64,000 nucleotides of DNA from NCBI RefSeq assembly GCF_039655865.1, contig NZ_JBBYXL010000013.1, forward strand, positions 1 to 64,000, written 5' to 3'. This DNA is from Prosthecobacter sp. SYSU 5D2. Lineage in GTDB: Bacteria; Verrucomicrobiota; Verrucomicrobiia; Verrucomicrobiales; Verrucomicrobiaceae. The notes beneath the pieces are model-generated. The model saw only the letters and a list, made by a program, of their open reading frames with translations, searched no databases and had not been told where the DNA came from. This document shows positions 7,057 to 61,857 of this stretch, in pieces. The position numbers were made by a program, and so were the translations under genes. Within the stretch, counting starts at the first letter, position 1. Each line of letters begins with the position of its first letter.

Positions 7057-8844
7057 ATGCTTGAATCCATCAACATCGGTCTTGAAGTGGATGCCCCTCC
7101 TGGCTCGGAGGCGGAAAGCCTGCACCTTTTGCGCGAGGTCAGCTTCAGCCTGCCGCAGGGTCATTTGATGGCGATCGTCGGCCCATCCGGCTGTGGCAAG
7201 ACGACGCTGCTGAAGGTCATCGCGGGCATTCTTGAGCAGAGTGATGGCGTGCTGAAGTGGGAGAACCGAGACCTCAAGGAGGAGGAGGATTTGCATCCAG
7301 GGGAGCTGGGTTATGTGCCGCAGTTCAGCGTCGCGCATGATCTGCTGACAGTGGAGGAATGCGTGGTCAGCAGCATGTCCTTGCGCACGCAGCTTCCGGG
7401 ATCAGATGACTTTGAAACCAAGCTGGACCACATCCTGGCCGTCACGGGCCTGACGGAGCTGGCGGACCGGCGGGTGAAGGTGCTCTCCGGCGGCCAGAAG
7501 CGGCGGCTGGGCCTGGCGTTGGAGCTCGTCACCAATCCCTGCCTGCTGCTGTGCGATGAGGTGACCAGCGGCCTGGACCCGAAGTCCGAACATGAGATCA
7601 CTTCGCTGCTGCGCGTGCTGGCGCAGGAAAACAAACGCCGGGTGGTGATCAATGTCACCCACAGCCTGGCCAGCCTGGAGGCCTTCGACAGCGTGCTGGT
7701 CATGTATCAGGGGCGGCTCGTTTACCATGGCCCGCCGAAGCTGCTCACTCATTACTTTACCGTGGAGCATCCTGAAGATGTCTATCTGCGCCTGACCCAG
7801 CGCGAGGCCCAGGAGTGGCATGAATCCTGGCAGAAAAAGCGCAGCTATTACGAGCAGATGCTGATGGAAAAGAAGGACATGCCAGAGTTCGGGCCCAAGA
7901 AGGAAATTCTGCGGGAGTCCGGCGCCGGGGAGCCGGAGGACACAGATTCCGACGGGGACAAGCCGCACCCGCTGGCTTCTGAGGAGCTGCCGGGCCTCTT
8001 CAGCCAGGTCTTCACCCTGCTGTCGCGGCGCTGGACGATCTTCCGGCGGGACAAGGGCCAGGTGTGGCTGCATCTGGCCATGCTCTTTGGCTTTCCGCTG
8101 CTGGTGGTCATCTTTGCGCTGGATGGCATCGCCCCGCTGAAGCAGCTCAACCAGCGGCAGGATGGAGATATCGTCTATGAGATGCAAAGGCAGGCCGAGC
8201 ATCAGCTCGAGCAGCTCCAGGCCGGGGGCATCGTCAGCGGGCTCATCATGCTGCAGGTGGTGTTGGTCACGCTGATGGCCAGCAACAACGCCGCGCGCGA
8301 GATCTCCGGTGAACGGCTGATTTTGGAACGCGAGAAACTGGGAGGGCTCAGCACGCTGGCCTATCTCATCAGCAAGGTGCTTTTCCTGGGGGTCTTTGTG
8401 CTGGCGCAAAGCCTGTGGATGGGGCTGTTTGTGGACATGGTCGTCGGTGGCCTGCCAGGGGATCTGCTGGTGAAGCTGGTCCTTTTGGTCCTGGCCTCCG
8501 CCGCGATGACGAGCATCTGCCTGGGCATCAGCGCCCTGAGCCGCAGCCCGGAAAAAGCCACCATCCTCAGTATCTACCTGGTCGGTTTCCAACTGCCCCT
8601 TTCCGGCGCGGTGCTCACGCTGCCAAGCTGGCTGGAAGGCGCGGTGAATCCCTTCATCGCCGCCTTCTGGGCCTGGTCCGGCAGCCTGCGCAGCCTCAGT
8701 GACACCGCCTTTTACGACGCCGTGAAAAAAGTCACCGACACCTCCCTGGTCTCGGCGGAGCTCGCCGCCTTTGTGCTTCTGGCGCATGTGGTCATCGGCC
8801 TGTGTATGGCCTATGTGGGCAGCAAGAACAGCCAGTGGGAGTAG
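7057..8844 (+). CDS. ABC-2 type transporter, fused ATPase and permease
   Basis: This is a 595-residue half-transporter of the ABCG-like order. The nucleotide-binding domain comes first, with Walker A GPSGCGKTT at 42-50, signature LSGGQKRR at about 143, and Walker B CLLLCDE followed by TSGLDP at about 163-175. An acidic linker (about 285-320) leads to a membrane domain with about six helices (340-595). An ALSRSPEKA segment lies in the permease. Cargo cannot be told from sequence; lipid or drug export are the usual roles. It is transcribed divergently from the AsmA-like gene. The TAG stop overlaps the first base of a GAATGAC heptamer. Confidence 0.88.
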   Translation: MLESINIGLEVDAPPGSEAESLHLLREVSFSLPQGHLMAIVGPSGCGKTTLLKVIAGILEQSDGVLKWENRDLKEEEDLHPGELGYVPQFSVAHDLLTVEECVVSSMSLRTQLPGSDDFETKLDHILAVTGLTELADRRVKVLSGGQKRRLGLALELVTNPCLLLCDEVTSGLDPKSEHEITSLLRVLAQENKRRVVINVTHSLASLEAFDSVLVMYQGRLVYHGPPKLLTHYFTVEHPEDVYLRLTQREAQEWHESWQKKRSYYEQMLMEKKDMPEFGPKKEILRESGAGEPEDTDSDGDKPHPLASEELPGLFSQVFTLLSRRWTIFRRDKGQVWLHLAMLFGFPLLVVIFALDGIAPLKQLNQRQDGDIVYEMQRQAEHQLEQLQAGGIVSGLIMLQVVLVTLMASNNAAREISGERLILEREKLGGLSTLAYLISKVLFLGVFVLAQSLWMGLFVDMVVGGLPGDLLVKLVLLVLASAAMTSICLGISALSRSPEKATILSIYLVGFQLPLSGAVLTLPSWLEGAVNPFIAAFWAWSGSLRSLSDTAFYDAVKKVTDTSLVSAELAAFVLLAHVVIGLCMAYVGSKNSQWE

Positions 8845-8857
8845 AATGACGAATGTT
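8844..8857. repeat. Degenerate GAATGAC heptamer pair
   Basis: GAATGAC is followed in register by GAATGTT, starting at the last base of the stop codon of the ABC transporter gene. The same unit forms longer arrays at 15467, 36836 and 61830. Confidence 0.45.
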
Positions 8858-15408: not shown

Positions 15409-15466
15409 GGGCAGGAGGGTCTGTGGCATGGAATACGCCGCAGGGCAACTGGCGGTGCTGACAGGT

Positions 15467-15501
15467 GAATGAGGAAATCCGAATGACGGAACCTGAATGG
15501 A
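15467..15501. repeat. Degenerate GAATGAC heptamer array, intergenic
   Basis: There are five heptamers in strict register: GAATGAG, GAAATCC, GAATGAC, GGAACCT, GAATGGA. It lies between the lipoprotein gene and hflX. It has the same unit as the valS insert and the 61830 array, but no inverted second arm is evident. Confidence 0.5.
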
Positions 15502-25616: not shown

Positions 25617-27671
25617 TTACGTCTGAAGTGGCTGGCTGGCAAGCCTGTCCTCCACCGCCGCCGCGACCTGGCCGGGGGTGATGAGGGTCATGCAGTTGTA
25701 GTGGCCAAAGGGGCACTCGCGCTTGAAGCAGGGGCTGCACGGCACGTGATGGCGGATGACGGTGTGCTGGGGGCCGAGCGGGCCGGTGAGGACGGGTTCG
25801 GTGGAGCCGAAGATGCTGACAGTGGGCACGCCCAGGGCGGCGGCCAGGTGCATGGTGCCGGTATCGTTGGTGACGAGCAGGCGGCAGGTGCGCAGCTCGG
25901 TGATGAGGGCGGAGAGTTTGGTTTTGCCAACGAGGTTTGTATGCCTCACCTCGCCCACCATTTGGGAAAGCTGCTCACCCATCGCCGCCTCGCCCGGAGC
26001 ACCGAAGAAAACCCATTCGATCTCCGGATAGCGGGCGGAGACCTGTTTCATCACCTCTGCAAAGCGGTCCATGGGCCAGCGCTTGGCCTGCCCGTATTCC
26101 GCCCCGGCGCAGATGCCGACACGCACGGCAGTGTTCAGTGTTCGGTTTTCAGTATTCAGTATTCCGTTTTCAGTATTCAGCCTGCCCTCGGACTGAATAC
26201 TGCCTCCTGAAGACTGAACACTGGAGACTGAAAACTGAATACTGTTCTCCGTATCCGCCCCGCAAGTCTTGGCCACATGCAGATACCGCAGCGTATGATG
26301 CATCGGCGGTCCGGCGACTTTCTTCGGCTCTTTGACGATCTGGGTGAGAAAGCGGGAGCGCAGGGAGCCTTTGTAGCCGACGAGGCGGGGGATGCCGGCG
26401 AGCCAGAATTCCAGCGTGCTGCGGGTGGAATTGGTGAGCAGGATGGCGGCATCAAAACGGATGCCTGTTTTCTTGATGCGGCGGGCGACGCTCAACAGGC
26501 CCTCCTTGTTCTCCTTGCCAATGTAGCGGTCCACCTCGGGCTGGGATTCCCACAGCTCACGCAGTTTTTCAGGACCGAAGACGGTCACTTTGCAGTCCGG
26601 GCGGCCTGCCTTCATGGCACGTACGGTGGGGAAGGCCATGCAGGCATCTCCCAGCCAGTTCGGCGAGCGGACCAGCAGCTCAAAGGGCTGCAATTTGGAA
26701 TGGTCGTAGTCTGCCGGATAAGCGATGCCGCGCTTATACCCTTGGAGGAGAAAGCGGGGCTTGGGCAGCTTCCAGCGGTTATGCACCCAGAACCAGTTTT
26801 CCGGCTGGCGGCGCACCATCATTTCCACGCTGCGGTTCATCCAGGTGGTCAGGCCGTCCACGGATTGCTTGATCTCCTCCGTATCCACTGGCGGACTGCA
26901 CACCATGCGCCAGCGGCCGGGACCGTCATCATAAATGGCCAGCGGCATCAGCACTCCGCGGCTGCGCTGGGCCATCATCGCTGCGATGGGGGTGGTGGAG
27001 GCCAGGCGGTCGAAAAAGGGCACCCAGACTCCGTGATCCCCGGCATGCTGGTCCACCAGCACGCCCAGGCAGCCGCCTTCCTTCATATGCCTCATGGGGC
27101 CGGTGAAGCCATCCTGGCGGTCAAAAAGGGTATATCCCAGCTTGCGGCGGCGGCGCAGGACCAGGGCATTCAAAAAGGGATTGCGCAGCGGCTGATAAAC
27201 CGTGGCTGGTTTGCGGTCGAAGACGAATAGTGAAGGCACCTGGGTTAGAATCTCCCAGCAGCTCAGGTGGCAGATCAGGTAAAGGATGGGCTTCTTTTTA
27301 GCCATCGCCTCATGGGTGTGGTTCATCCCCTCCACAGTGACGCGGCGCAGCACGTCCTCCTTGTCCATCATGGGCAGTTTGAAGCCGCATAAAACATTCG
27401 TCACCAGGGACTGGAAGTGCGCCTTGGCCGTATGGTGGATCCAATGCGCCGACTTTTCCCGGCCAAAGGCGATTTGGAGGTTATGCTTGGCCAGCCGCCG
27501 GTATTTTGGCAGGATGTAAAAGCCGATGCTGCCCAGGACGCGCCCCAGGTACCAGATGAACTCCACCGGCAGCAGCCACAGCAGGCCCTCGATGCAGCGA
27601 AACAGCGCATACACCAGCCAGTGGCTGATGAGCTGGAGAGTTTTGTTTTTCGGGGTGGAGGCCTTGCCCAT
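25617..27671 (-). CDS. Fusion of LpxL-like acyltransferase and GT9 (heptosyltransferase-like) glycosyltransferase
   Basis: The product has 684 residues. Residues 1-310 match lipid A acyltransferases (LpxL/HtrB): N-terminal membrane helix, catalytic H135-x4-E140 (HLSCWE), VLVDQHAGDHGVWVPFF and ENWFWVHNRWK. From about 331 a GT9 domain begins (ELLVRSPNWLGDACMAFPTV) and ends with TNDTGTMHLAAALGVPTVSIFGSTEP. So acyl transfer to lipid A and addition of a heptose-like sugar may be linked in one membrane-bound protein. Both halves keep their motifs, so both could be active. Residues about 476-515, between the two Rossmann halves of the GT9 domain, are encoded by a palindromic heptamer repeat (26129-26244). 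Neighbours are Uma2 and the LptF/G-type permease. Confidence 0.88.
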   Translation of the reverse strand: MGKASTPKNKTLQLISHWLVYALFRCIEGLLWLLPVEFIWYLGRVLGSIGFYILPKYRRLAKHNLQIAFGREKSAHWIHHTAKAHFQSLVTNVLCGFKLPMMDKEDVLRRVTVEGMNHTHEAMAKKKPILYLICHLSCWEILTQVPSLFVFDRKPATVYQPLRNPFLNALVLRRRRKLGYTLFDRQDGFTGPMRHMKEGGCLGVLVDQHAGDHGVWVPFFDRLASTTPIAAMMAQRSRGVLMPLAIYDDGPGRWRMVCSPPVDTEEIKQSVDGLTTWMNRSVEMMVRRQPENWFWVHNRWKLPKPRFLLQGYKRGIAYPADYDHSKLQPFELLVRSPNWLGDACMAFPTVRAMKAGRPDCKVTVFGPEKLRELWESQPEVDRYIGKENKEGLLSVARRIKKTGIRFDAAILLTNSTRSTLEFWLAGIPRLVGYKGSLRSRFLTQIVKEPKKVAGPPMHHTLRYLHVAKTCGADTENSIQFSVSSVQSSGGSIQSEGRLNTENGILNTENRTLNTAVRVGICAGAEYGQAKRWPMDRFAEVMKQVSARYPEIEWVFFGAPGEAAMGEQLSQMVGEVRHTNLVGKTKLSALITELRTCRLLVTNDTGTMHLAAALGVPTVSIFGSTEPVLTGPLGPQHTVIRHHVPCSPCFKRECPFGHYNCMTLITPGQVAAAVEDRLASQPLQT
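26129..26244. repeat. Heptamer-periodic palindromic insert inside the LpxL-GT9 gene
   Basis: The left arm 26129-26180 is seven heptamers (CAGTGTT, CAGTGTT, CGGTTTT, CAGTATT, CAGTATT, CCGTTTT, CAGTATT) plus CAG. The right arm 26191 onward is the reverse-complement type (AATACTG, CCTCCTG, AAGACTG, AACACTG, GAGACTG, AAAACTG, AATACTG). The arms match in register at about 40 of 52 positions around a 10-base loop. The gene reads through it without a stop. Confidence 0.85.
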
Positions 27672-34585: not shown

Positions 34586-35479
34586 TCAATCCGCTTTCTT
34601 GACGCGAAAGGCCTCCAGCTTCTCCTTCATACCGGTCAGCTCCGCTTCCAGTTCTGCAATCTTCTTCTCCAAAGAAGTGCAGTATTTCTCCGGGTTGCGC
34701 TGCTGAATGCGCTCGAAGAGGTTAAACAGCAGGGCCAATCTTAGCAACCGGCTGTTCAAGGTGCGCAGGCGGTAAGCACGGAGCAGTTTTCCCGCGCGGA
34801 AAAAGCGGGCGAAGCGGAAAACGGCCAGGACCCGGAGGAAGGCCAGGAGCGGCAGCAGGATGATGACGAGATTGATCCAGTGGCGCAGGCAGTAGCCCAG
34901 CTTTTGCGGTGTGGCGGAGATCATCCAGACAAACTCAGCCACGAAACCGATCCAGATGAGGCAGGTGGTCAGATGCACTGCCAGGGCCCAGGTGGGCCGC
35001 TTATCCAAAGCCTCCCCGGCGCCCAGTTCAGCTCCCAATACGGGGAGAACCAGAAGGGTCAGGAAGAGCATCGGCAGGGCCAGCTTTTGCTCCAGGCGTT
35101 CCGTTGTTTTCGGGCCGGTGGGCCGCCAGCCGGCACCGGGCAGCCACAGCCAGCCGGGCGGCGTGCTGGTGGCCGTGGTCATGCGGATCGGCGGCAGGAG
35201 GGTGATCAGCAGCAGGCGCTTCAGCCGCGCAGGCCAAGCATCTGCCGCCAAAAATAGGCCGGCCAGGCTTTCCAGTGCGATGAAGGCCCAGGCACCCAGC
35301 AGGACCGTGAGATAAGCCGGGTGCAGCCGCGCCGCCTCCCGAAAACTGTCCCCGCTGTCCCCATGCGGCAGGACGATGGCGACCAGCAGCAGAAACAGCA
35401 GCGCGACGACGAGCATGACCCCGTGACGCAGGGGGGCTGCGGGTGGGGGCGCGGAAAGGACCTTTTCGGGAGCGCTCAT
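34586..35479 (-). CDS. Voltage-sensor-like membrane protein with C-terminal coiled coil
   Basis: The product has 297 residues from ATG 35479. Two N-terminal helices (about 20-38, 55-78) precede a four-helix unit that reads like a voltage-sensing domain. The S1 segment is 134-152. S2 (166-188) has F179 and E182 at the F-x-x-E charge-transfer spacing, and S3 (196-214) has N203. S4 has basic residues at 222, 225, 228, 231, 234 and 237 (every third) plus R216. The usual S3 Asp is absent. No pore helix or selectivity filter follows; instead a charged coiled coil (about 255-293) ends the protein, as in Hv1-type proteins. Function, if a channel, is inference. It diverges from valS. Confidence 0.6.
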   Translation of the reverse strand: MSAPEKVLSAPPPAAPLRHGVMLVVALLFLLLVAIVLPHGDSGDSFREAARLHPAYLTVLLGAWAFIALESLAGLFLAADAWPARLKRLLLITLLPPIRMTTATSTPPGWLWLPGAGWRPTGPKTTERLEQKLALPMLFLTLLVLPVLGAELGAGEALDKRPTWALAVHLTTCLIWIGFVAEFVWMISATPQKLGYCLRHWINLVIILLPLLAFLRVLAVFRFARFFRAGKLLRAYRLRTLNSRLLRLALLFNLFERIQQRNPEKYCTSLEKKIAELEAELTGMKEKLEAFRVKKAD

Positions 35480-35552: not shown

Positions 35553-38288
35553 ATGCCTGAACTGCCCAAGACCTACACGCCGAGCGAAGCCGAAGAACGC
35601 TGGTACCAGCGCTGGCTGGACGACAAGTGCTTTGAAGCCAACCCGGCCCGCGTCAGCGAAAAACGTCCAGCGTATTCCATCGTCATTCCGCCACCGAACG
35701 TTACGGGCGTGCTGCACATGGGCCATGTGCTCAACAACACCATTCAGGACATCCTCTGCCGCCATGCCCGCATGATGGGGAAGGAAGTGCTGTGGCTGCC
35801 CGGCACCGACCACGCCGGCCTTGCCACCCAGAACGTGGTGGAAAAGACGCTCAAGAAGCAGGGCGTGATCAAGCATCGCGACGACCTCGGCCGTGAAAAG
35901 CTGATCGAAAAAATCTGGGAGTGGAAGGACAAGCAAGGTGACATCATCATCCAGCAGCTCAAAAAACTGGGCGCTTCCTGCGACTGGAGCCGCCAGCGTT
36001 TCACCTTCGACGAAGACTACAACCGCTGCGTGATGCAGGTGTTTGTGGACCTTTACAAAAAAGGCCTCATCTACCGTGGCAAGCGCATGGTGAACTGGTG
36101 CCCCTCCTCCCTCACCGCGCTGAGCGATGAGGAGGTGGAGATGAAGCAGCAGAACGGTTTTATGTATCATTTCAAGGTGCAGGTGGTGGAGGAGCCGGAC
36201 ACCTGGCTGACCATCGCCACCACGCGCCCCGAGACCATCCCAGGCGACACCGCCGTGGCCGTGAACCCGAATGACGAGCGCTACAAGCACCTCATCGGTA
36301 AACACATCCGCCGCCCCCTGCCGCTGGAAAACCAGGCGCCAATCCCGATCGTGGGCGATGAGCATGTGGATTTCGAATTCGGCACCGGCGTGCTGAAGGT
36401 GACCCCGGCGCATGACAAGGCCGACTTTGAAATCGGCCAGCGTCACGGTCTGGAGATCATTGACATCCTGCATCCGAATGCCGTGCTCAATGACCTGGCA
36501 GGCAAAGACCTCGCCGGGCTGGAGCGCTTCGAAGGTCGCAAGAAAGCGGTTGAGCTGCTGAAGGAAATGGAAGCTCTCATCAAGGAGGAGCCGCATCAGA
36601 ACAACGTTGGTTATTCCGAGCGCGCCGGTGTGCCCATCGAGCCGCGCCTCAGCGAGCAGTGGTTCCTGAAGTATCCGAGCGTGAAGGAATCTCAGGACGT
36701 GGTGGCCAAGGGCGAGATGAAGTTTTACCCCGATCGCTGGGCCAAGGTGTACGACCATTGGATGGGCGGCCTCCAGGACTGGTGCATCAGCCGCCAGGTG
36801 TGGTGGGGGCACCGTGTGCCGGTGTGGTACAGAAAGAATGACGAATCCCGAATGACGAATGACGAAAAGTCAGATTCATCATTCGTCATTCCTCATTCGT
36901 CATTGTCTGATGCCGACATTTATTGCGGCATCGAGCCACCTTCCGATCCCGAAAATTGGGAGCAGGACCCCGACGTTCTCGACACCTGGTTCAGCTCCTG
37001 GCTGTGGCCGTTTGCCACCATGGGCTGGCCTAACAAGACGGATGATCTGAAGGCTTTCTACCCGACCACGGATCTGGTGACCGGGCCAGACATCATTTTC
37101 TTCTGGGTGGCCCGCATGATCATGGCGGGATATGAGTGGATGGGTGAGATGCCGTTTAAGAACGTGTACTTCACCGGCATCATCCGCGACAAGCAGGGCC
37201 GCAAGATGTCGAAATCCCTCGGCAACTCGCCGGATCCGCTGGACCTCATTGCCAACTACAGTGCAGACGCTCTCCGCTTCGGCATCATGCGTAGCGCGCC
37301 GCTGGGCCAGGACATCTGCTTTGACGAGAAGAACGTGGAGCTGGGCCGCAACTTCTGCACGAAGCTGTGGAACGCCTCCCGCTTCCGCCAGATGCAAGGC
37401 GGCACGACGGAAACGGAGATCAGCGCCGAGCTGCTCAGCAGCGACGACAAGTGGATCCTGCTGCGCCTCAATACCGCCATCGCGGAAGTCACCACCGCTC
37501 TGGAAGAATACCGTTTCAGCGATGCCACCGCCACGCTCTACCGCTTCTTCTGGAGCGAGTACTGCGACTGGTATGTGGAGGCCTCCAAGGCGGTGCTTCA
37601 GGGCACGGACGAGAAGCGCAAGGCCAATACCCTGGCCGTGATTGACTTCGTTCTCGGCAATACCCTGCGCCTGTTTCACCCCTTCCTGCCTTTCATCACG
37701 GAGGAGCTGTGGCACGGCATGGGCTTCAATGAAGACCTGCCAGAAAACCAGGGTGGCAAGAGCATCATGTTCGCCCCCTGGCCGAAGCCTCTGAACGCGG
37801 ATGAACTCGCCTACTTTGGCATCCTGCCGGAAGATGAAAAAGCGGCTAACGAAAAGTATGAGGCCGTGAACCTGGGCCGTGGTCTGAAGAGCAGCTTCAA
37901 CATCACCAAGAAGGTTCGCTTCGTCCTCAAACCCAGCCAAGAACTGCCTGAGCATGAGATCGAAGTGTTGCGCATCCTGCTGAATGCCGAACCCCTGGAT
38001 GTGGATGCCGCCTACGCCGCGCCGAAAGGCACTCCGAGCGCCCTCACCCCGCTAGGCACCATTTACCTGCCACTGGATGGCCTCATTGACGTGGAAGCCG
38101 AGCGCGCCCGCATCACCAAGGAACTCGACAAAGCGAACACGGAACTTCAAAAAGTCTGCGCCAAGCTGGCCGATGAAAACTTCACCGCCAAGGTCCCGCA
38201 AAAGGTGCTGGATGAGCACCAGCAGCGCAAAGCCGACTGGAAGGAGAAGAAAGCCAAGCTGGAAGAGATGATGAGTGCGCTGGGGTGA
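35553..38288 (+). CDS. valS: Valyl-tRNA synthetase
   Basis: The product has 911 residues from ATG 35553 (MPELPKTYTPSEAEERWYQRW). Class I signatures are present: H55-M-G-H in PPNVTGVLHMGH, and KMSKS in KQGRKMSKSLGNSPDP. It has the editing domain (TTRPETIPGDTAVAVNP), the tRNA anticodon-binding region and a C-terminal coiled coil (ITKELDKANTELQKVCAKL). It charges tRNA-Val and edits Thr. At residues about 427-453, just after the WWGHRVPVWY motif, the DNA is a 70-base palindromic heptamer insert that is translated through. Otherwise length and motifs are normal, so the enzyme should be active. Confidence 0.95.
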   Translation: MPELPKTYTPSEAEERWYQRWLDDKCFEANPARVSEKRPAYSIVIPPPNVTGVLHMGHVLNNTIQDILCRHARMMGKEVLWLPGTDHAGLATQNVVEKTLKKQGVIKHRDDLGREKLIEKIWEWKDKQGDIIIQQLKKLGASCDWSRQRFTFDEDYNRCVMQVFVDLYKKGLIYRGKRMVNWCPSSLTALSDEEVEMKQQNGFMYHFKVQVVEEPDTWLTIATTRPETIPGDTAVAVNPNDERYKHLIGKHIRRPLPLENQAPIPIVGDEHVDFEFGTGVLKVTPAHDKADFEIGQRHGLEIIDILHPNAVLNDLAGKDLAGLERFEGRKKAVELLKEMEALIKEEPHQNNVGYSERAGVPIEPRLSEQWFLKYPSVKESQDVVAKGEMKFYPDRWAKVYDHWMGGLQDWCISRQVWWGHRVPVWYRKNDESRMTNDEKSDSSFVIPHSSLSDADIYCGIEPPSDPENWEQDPDVLDTWFSSWLWPFATMGWPNKTDDLKAFYPTTDLVTGPDIIFFWVARMIMAGYEWMGEMPFKNVYFTGIIRDKQGRKMSKSLGNSPDPLDLIANYSADALRFGIMRSAPLGQDICFDEKNVELGRNFCTKLWNASRFRQMQGGTTETEISAELLSSDDKWILLRLNTAIAEVTTALEEYRFSDATATLYRFFWSEYCDWYVEASKAVLQGTDEKRKANTLAVIDFVLGNTLRLFHPFLPFITEELWHGMGFNEDLPENQGGKSIMFAPWPKPLNADELAYFGILPEDEKAANEKYEAVNLGRGLKSSFNITKKVRFVLKPSQELPEHEIEVLRILLNAEPLDVDAAYAAPKGTPSALTPLGTIYLPLDGLIDVEAERARITKELDKANTELQKVCAKLADENFTAKVPQKVLDEHQQRKADWKEKKAKLEEMMSALG
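36836..36905. repeat. Heptamer-periodic palindromic insert inside valS
   Basis: The left arm 36836-36866 is four heptamers plus GAA (GAATGAC, GAATCCC, GAATGAC, GAATGAC). The right arm 36875-36905 is its reverse complement type (GTCATTC units). Arms of 31 bases match at 26 positions around an 8-base loop. The valS frame stays open because the second heptamer is GAATCCC, which replaces an in-frame TGA by TCC. Confidence 0.88.
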
Positions 38289-61829: not shown

Positions 61830-61857
61830 GTCATTCGTCATTCTGAATTCGTCATTC
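61830..61857. repeat. GAATGAC heptamer array between the MBL and TIGR03790 genes
   Basis: There are four heptamers in register (on the plus strand GTCATTC, GTCATTC, TGAATTC, GTCATTC). The array overlaps the TGA stop of the MBL gene (61856-61858). Same unit as in valS; no complete second arm. Confidence 0.6.

Follow-up and report, generated by a model that had tools for sequence, protein, structure and literature searches.

The valyl-tRNA synthetase gene (valS) of Prosthecobacter sp. SYSU 5D2 carries, in frame, a palindromic array of GAATGAC heptamers, which raises the question of how such an array came to lie within a core gene and how the enzyme accommodates it. The window analysed here is a stretch of 64,000 nucleotides of this genome; its features, together with the copies judged to lie inside genes, are collected in Table 1. 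The valS array probably belongs to a dispersed family of non-autonomous palindromic GAATGAC repeats, which are kept where they are harmless.

The heptamer palindrome of valS and its site

The palindrome and the periodicity at 36836-36905 are real and beyond chance. The two arms (36837-36866 and 36875-36904) are 30 nt long, are complementary at 26/30 positions (87%), and are separated by 8 nt, while Tandem Repeats Finder gives a period of 7 in both, in agreement with the in-frame heptamer palindrome described in the original prediction. Two-unit GAATGAC matches with at most two mismatches occur eight times in the window (six in the valS palindrome and two elsewhere) versus 0.41 expected, and none of 100 shuffles of the window reaches eight. 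The corresponding RNA hairpin has a calculated energy of -36.1 kcal/mol (z -6.5). Cyanobacterial STRR elements have a period of 7 and a variable number of units, and each valS arm likewise consists of tandem heptamers, the arms being mutually inverted; the likeness to STRR that had been suggested holds for the period of 7 and goes no further.

The array lies in frame in the 936-aa ValS ORF, in which conserved homology begins near the ATG at 35553, the first ATG being that at 35478. The insert had been placed at residue 427 or so; it lies at about residue 454 counted from the first ATG and at about 429, near the former figure, counted from the second. The 69 nt at 36836-36904 correspond to 23 residues and not to the roughly 27 first given; their removal leaves, by eye, an unbroken frame with the linker WYRKSDADIYCG, the exact borders of the insert being uncertain by some bases. 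The account of an avoided stop codon is correct, as the second unit reads GAATCCC and a GAATGAC in its place would give an in-frame TGA. The loop is translated as KSDSS, resembling the SDSS present in linkers of relatives. Six ValS matches were obtained in the own genome, of which the single strong one is the window valS, and four others among those listed show a weak identity of 24-35%. The AlphaFold model of the window ValS is uninformative (mean pLDDT 63, with values under 50 over much of the catalytic domain). Most likely, this ValS carries a flexible additional stretch of about 23 residues.

Table 1. Features of the window and copies of the repeat judged to lie inside genes
Feature	Position or locus	Strand	Remarks
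valS, valyl-tRNA synthetase, 936 aa	35478..38288	+	TIGR00422, NF004349, PDB 1gax
Palindrome, left arm	36836..36866	+	units GAATGAC, GAATCCC, GAATGAC, GAATGAC, then GAA; translated (K)NDESRMTNDE
Palindrome, 8-nt loop	36867..36874	none	
Palindrome, right arm	36875..36905	-	same heptamers on opposite strand; translated SSFVIPHSSL
Second palindrome, GAANACT (CAGTATT) heptamers	26115..26258	none	in frame; hairpin z -7.4
Lipid A acyltransferase (PF03279) + heptosyltransferase (PF01075) gene	25617..27671	-	carries the GAANACT palindrome
Short GAATGAC array	61830..61857	-	array also present at the syntenic place of sister genome G013, with alignment on both flanks
In-gene copy, window ValS			
In-gene copy, ValS of a Phycisphaerales MAG	L201		
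In-gene copies, IleS of two Planctomycetota	L174, L186		
In-gene copy, AlaS of a congener	L140		
In-gene copy, UvrA	L188		
In-gene copy, HemW	L184		
In-gene copy, HrpB-like helicase	L152		score just below NCBIfam cut-off
In-gene copy, error-prone DNA polymerase	L159		
In-gene copy, DNA ligase fusion	L134		
In-gene copies, two kinases	L124, L168		
In-gene copies, two PSCyt2 proteins	L028, L029		own genome
In-gene copy, ABC-type ATPase	L154		weak Pfam

The same region was compared throughout the genus, where 48 genomes yielded 40 matches and 30 valS loci, 29 of them readable from WWGH through DTWFSS, while L385 was excluded from the linker set as the motif was not obtained. This stretch comprises 66 residues in the own ValS, 40-51 residues in 15/28 other congeners, and 95-120 residues of unrelated sequence in the remaining 13/28. 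The heptamer peptide is found in 0/28 of these linkers and the insert is also lacking in three further congener valS genes (L042, L045, and L048), so the insert appears confined to this species among the congeners read. Because the congener linkers vary in both length and sequence, the site after WWGHRxPVWY of ValS is, as judged from the linkers read, a hypervariable and tolerant loop. The original prediction is partly supported, the insert being absent from the relatives read but long unrelated sequence being present in the same place in 13 of them. The claim of a recent mobile or slippage-derived insertion is favoured by its presence in this species only (0/28 and 0/3) and by the multi-copy nature of the repeat, but the site is not a constant core. 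The valS genes of genomes G010, G011, and G016 show gaps of about 930-950 nt with an open frame near residue 240; their ORFs reach 1291-1404 aa, and large in-frame insertions are possible there.

Distribution of the repeat and its copies inside genes

The own genome contains 57 exact occurrences of the 14-mer GAATGACGAATGAC and none of its reversed control. In the genus, 21-mer arrays with at most one mismatch are present in 35/48 genomes, own genome included, with the reversed control in none, and the number of array places per genome ranges from 0 to 145. In a sample of the phylum, the repeat is patchy, the 14-mer being found in 28/387 genomes, many with one or two places; since the reversed control is found in 11, single 14-mer matches outside the genus mean little. 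A scan of genome contigs gave at least 118 stretches in at least 80 loci, with exact palindromes under six phylum labels among the matches listed. By title, these labels are Verrucomicrobiota (31), Planctomycetota (24), Bacteroidota (12), Patescibacteria (9, all in one MAG), Chloroflexota (3), and Acidobacteriota (1), counts that differ from frequencies and may include errors of MAG binning. Many arrays are without a clear second arm. Among the 20 inverted repeats of at least 18 nt in 864 kb sampled from the own genome, four are heptameric, two of the four being in the window; full palindromes are thus fewer than arrays. Further short GAATGAC-like stretches are located in the window at 15466-15499 and 8844-8857.

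Reading frames were tested for 164 distinct elements, arrays and palindromes together, with 36 near locus ends left out, and in 24/164 one frame stays open for 120 codons or more on either side. After checks with Pfam (all 23 ORFs), NCBIfam (nine), and PDB (five), 15 of the 24 cases were judged to lie inside real genes. A replicase identity for the ORF of L159 was rejected, since NCBIfam assigns it to error-prone polymerase; seven cases were set aside as not convincingly in a gene (L030, L163, L175, L179, L183, L324, and L340) and two as uncertain (L108 and the second site of L188). The original prediction held that core essential genes rarely carry such an element; the valS copy is not unique, as similar in-frame copies, some of them in core genes, occur in other genera and phyla.

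The peptides (N)DExRMTNDE and SSFVIRHSS are encoded by many of the in-gene copies. Reading as AAT-GAC-GAA accounts for 13/18 open readings in 11 in-gene palindromes versus 38/103 in the others, and a second frame is often open too. Nevertheless, design for translation was rejected, since elements are open less often per frame than shuffled letters (0.175 versus 0.25) and 75/104 palindromes that do not belong to the in-gene set have an open frame as well. The openness below that of shuffled letters indicates that the in-frame copies represent survival and not design. The IleS proteins of L174 and L186 are 75% identical and have the insertion place in common, which means that a copy can persist or that the site was hit twice. 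In the Phycisphaerales locus (L201:3880-4050), the ValS palindrome lies, by eye, between the halves of what seems a further inverted repeat, G-rich on one side and C-rich on the other; the other loci examined do not contain a 19-nt segment taken from its right half.

Anatomy and possible origin of the repeat

A common form of the element is AATGACGAA-xxxx-GAATGACGAATGACGAA, followed by a loop and then the inverse, with a span of about 40-160 bp between the outermost units (69 bp in valS). The variable unit is not the same in all lineages, and in several pairs it changes along with its partner. In 52 palindromes, with related rows at full weight, an average of 10.4 of the outer 17 nt are paired in the covariation analysis, compared with a shuffled mean of 8.5 and a maximum of 10.04 among 500 shuffles. 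Array length varies by whole 7-nt units, stable hairpins were obtained in 4/4 stretches folded, and some copies are located, by eye, between a stop codon and the next start codon. Loops usually differ from copy to copy. For 42 loops of eight selected genomes, likeness is greater within genomes than between them, a difference reached by 0/2000 permutations, with the loop strings including stem parts that raise likeness in general; this within-genome likeness is due chiefly to P. debontii and to a single MAG of Chthoniobacteraceae, and the loops are hardly alike in six of the eight genomes. Several P. debontii copies have common loops, in both orientations. Regarding the target site, 16 of 114 elements share 2-3 bases versus about 11.6 when shuffled, and none shares more than three; a clear target-site duplication, which characterises MITEs moved by DDE transposases, is thus not observed.

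The enzymes and vehicles that could carry such a repeat were considered as well. Y1 transposase matches are present in 47/48 genus genomes, but at 20 loci examined out of 55 matches no flanking array occurs within 1.5 kb, a single heptamer pair with two mismatches being near one of them, and four Y1 flanks contain no heptamers by eye. Moreover, array and Y1 counts across the 48 genomes are weakly correlated (rho 0.39, p 0.006; 0.22 given genome size). Given that Y1 genes are common in the genus, are not array-flanked at these 20 loci, and correlate weakly with the arrays, Y1/RAYT was rejected as the mover, and the arrangement typical of REP/REPIN, a RAYT gene flanked by its repeat, is not seen. 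Plasmid or viral carriage was also rejected, as an 81-nt query had no plasmid DNA match (a weak result, since BLAST masks simple repeats), a protein search returned one poor match, and viral contigs contained one stretch. In L120 (16544-18757, minus strand), a Y1/RAYT-like domain is placed in frame in an ORF that resembles, by eye, a glycosyltransferase.

The repeat is apparently mobile, because it is multi-copy in the own genome and in the genus and the valS insert is seen in this species only. A dispersed repeat is further favoured by the patchy distribution in the phylum sample, the sites that differ between the own genome and its sister G013, the in-gene copies elsewhere, the covarying arms, and the likeness of loops within genomes. 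Movement would depend on a trans-acting enzyme, perhaps through a single-stranded hairpin, and arrays would later grow by slippage of 7 nt. A gene-borne copy would survive only if its length keeps the frame and if the arm reading GAATGAC has no in-frame TGA, owing to a variant unit, as in valS, or to a short arm; it would also need a tolerant loop, in ValS the hypervariable linker, and the peptide would be retained in the mature enzyme as a near-neutral addition. Against a mobile repeat stand the facts that no mobilising enzyme was found among the Y1 loci examined and that there is no clear target duplication, together with the low openness of the elements per frame, the many arrays without a clear second arm, and the mere four full heptameric palindromes of the 864-kb sample. 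A serious rival is, indeed, a local origin that dispenses with any mobile element: replication slippage would lengthen a heptamer seed, and the inverted arm would be generated when synthesis switches template across the nascent strand, with host sequence as the loop. Its weight comes from loops that mostly differ and from arrays that change in steps of 7 nt: a clear target duplication is lacking, the dissimilar loops in six of eight genomes mean that arms may form around host sequence, several arrays of a second heptamer family (see the last section) are uniform per locus, the valS loop resembles the linker of relatives, and heptamer slippage has already been proposed in the available text of PMC4692102. 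However, the same GAATGAC unit recurs in distant phyla among the matches listed and forms arrays in most genomes of the genus, where its reversed control is absent, while the common loops of P. debontii in both orientations and the L201 copy between two halves of what seems, by eye, another inverted repeat also speak against local growth, and we regard this origin as unlikely.

Two other explanations deserve consideration. The stable folds, the covarying arms, and the copies between stop and start codons would suit a functional RNA hairpin that controls how valS and other genes are translated or how stable their mRNAs are, the role suggested for the TAACTGA heptamers of Beggiatoaceae, but this role is improbable for an element that is missing from 28 other valS linkers, is patchy between species, and lies mid-gene in valS, away from the start. 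An old neutral linker with a coincidental heptamer look could appeal to the varying linker length among the congeners read; nonetheless, the periodicity, the palindrome, and the genome copies are far beyond chance, and in our view those copies already refute this practically impossible reading. As for the dispersed repeat, a wider and doubtful extension would regard GAATGAC palindromes and the sister family GAANACT as a cross-phylum class of mobile repeats built of heptamers, whose movement leaves no target duplication and relies on an enzyme, perhaps one that copies a short template into 7-nt repeats. Core proteins, with aminoacyl-tRNA synthetases among the commonest seen, would repeatedly gain a similar peptide (NDExRMTNDE ... 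SSFVIRHSS) from these repeats, and their arrays would act as landing sites for a further element.

Known systems and related repeats

The closest working analogue of the GAATGAC palindrome would be the Rickettsia palindromic element (RPE). RPE-named NCBIfam models exist, and none is among the families listed for nine proteins at E 0.001. In the available text of PMC2229807, RPEs are short palindromes of 105-146 bp that form long hairpins, occur between and inside genes, and encode in-frame peptides in conserved proteins. The GAATGAC palindrome shares the long hairpin, both kinds of location, and the open frame; however, RPE sequences appear to be different, that text mentions no heptamer units, and RPEs belong to Rickettsia whereas the GAATGAC repeat spans several phyla. 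REP/REPIN and the GTAG-/CGTC-tagged palindromes are described in the accessible part of PMC3733652 as multi-copy in PVC bacteria and sometimes placed in genes, e.g., uvrA, also in the verrucomicrobium O. terrae; they have 5-13 bp stems plus the tag, and GTAG repeats accompany transposase genes. The GAATGAC repeat is similarly palindromic, multi-copy, and sometimes in genes, but its heptamer arms reach about 30 nt, and the Y1 loci examined are not flanked by arrays (0/20).

Among heptamer repeats, TAACTGA is patchily distributed across phyla (Beggiatoaceae, Cyanobacteria, and Bacteroidetes), mostly intergenic with some copies in ORFs, and the main genome described has 169 direct sets and one inverted, mostly directly upstream of start codons (PMC4679880, available text). 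The unit length and the patchy, cross-phylum distribution resemble those of GAATGAC, whereas the sequence and the direct arrangement differ. The GGGAATC heptamers of Xanthomonas have a period of 7, a variable unit number, and inverted pairs, and are G-rich, quadruplex-forming, and mainly intergenic; the available part of PMC4692102 makes no mention of core genes with palindromes in frame. Literature searches by DNA and peptide strings and by topic, mostly without subscription papers and with partial texts, returned no description of the GAATGAC repeat, the string search giving a fungal match. In-frame gene palindromes are already known from Rickettsia and, as REPs, from several species, one of them a verrucomicrobium (PMC3733652 and PMC2229807, as available); the present case adds one heptamer-built repeat that occurs in several phyla in frame in valS, ileS, alaS, and uvrA, among others. 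It provides a concrete group of important enzymes whose loop insertions can be tested, and it bears on the means by which 7-nt repeats move or grow; the recurring peptide can confuse gene annotation.

The window contains a palindrome of the second heptamer family, GAANACT, exact three-unit arrays of which are present in 9/48 genus genomes, with the reversed control in one genome. In the comparison with the sister genome G013, which involves small numbers, the valS site and the site at 26115 are filled in the own genome only, with both flanks aligned and unrelated sequence in G013 at the latter; two sites are filled in both genomes, and at four sites G013 has a copy while none is seen at the corresponding own place, each with one aligned flank.

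A further repeat of G013 (loci L389-L418) is placed directly in heptamer arrays; none was seen in the own-genome stretches examined or among the 80 loci listed. It measures about 164 nt in two whole copies (L345:3065-3228 and L336:2991-3154) and has the ends TCGTTAAGTTAAG. Considering 30 of its 37 places, an array lies just outside 27/29 distinct ends, compared with 0.065% of random stretches, and the heptamer arrays look, at the sequence level, like landing sites of this repeat.
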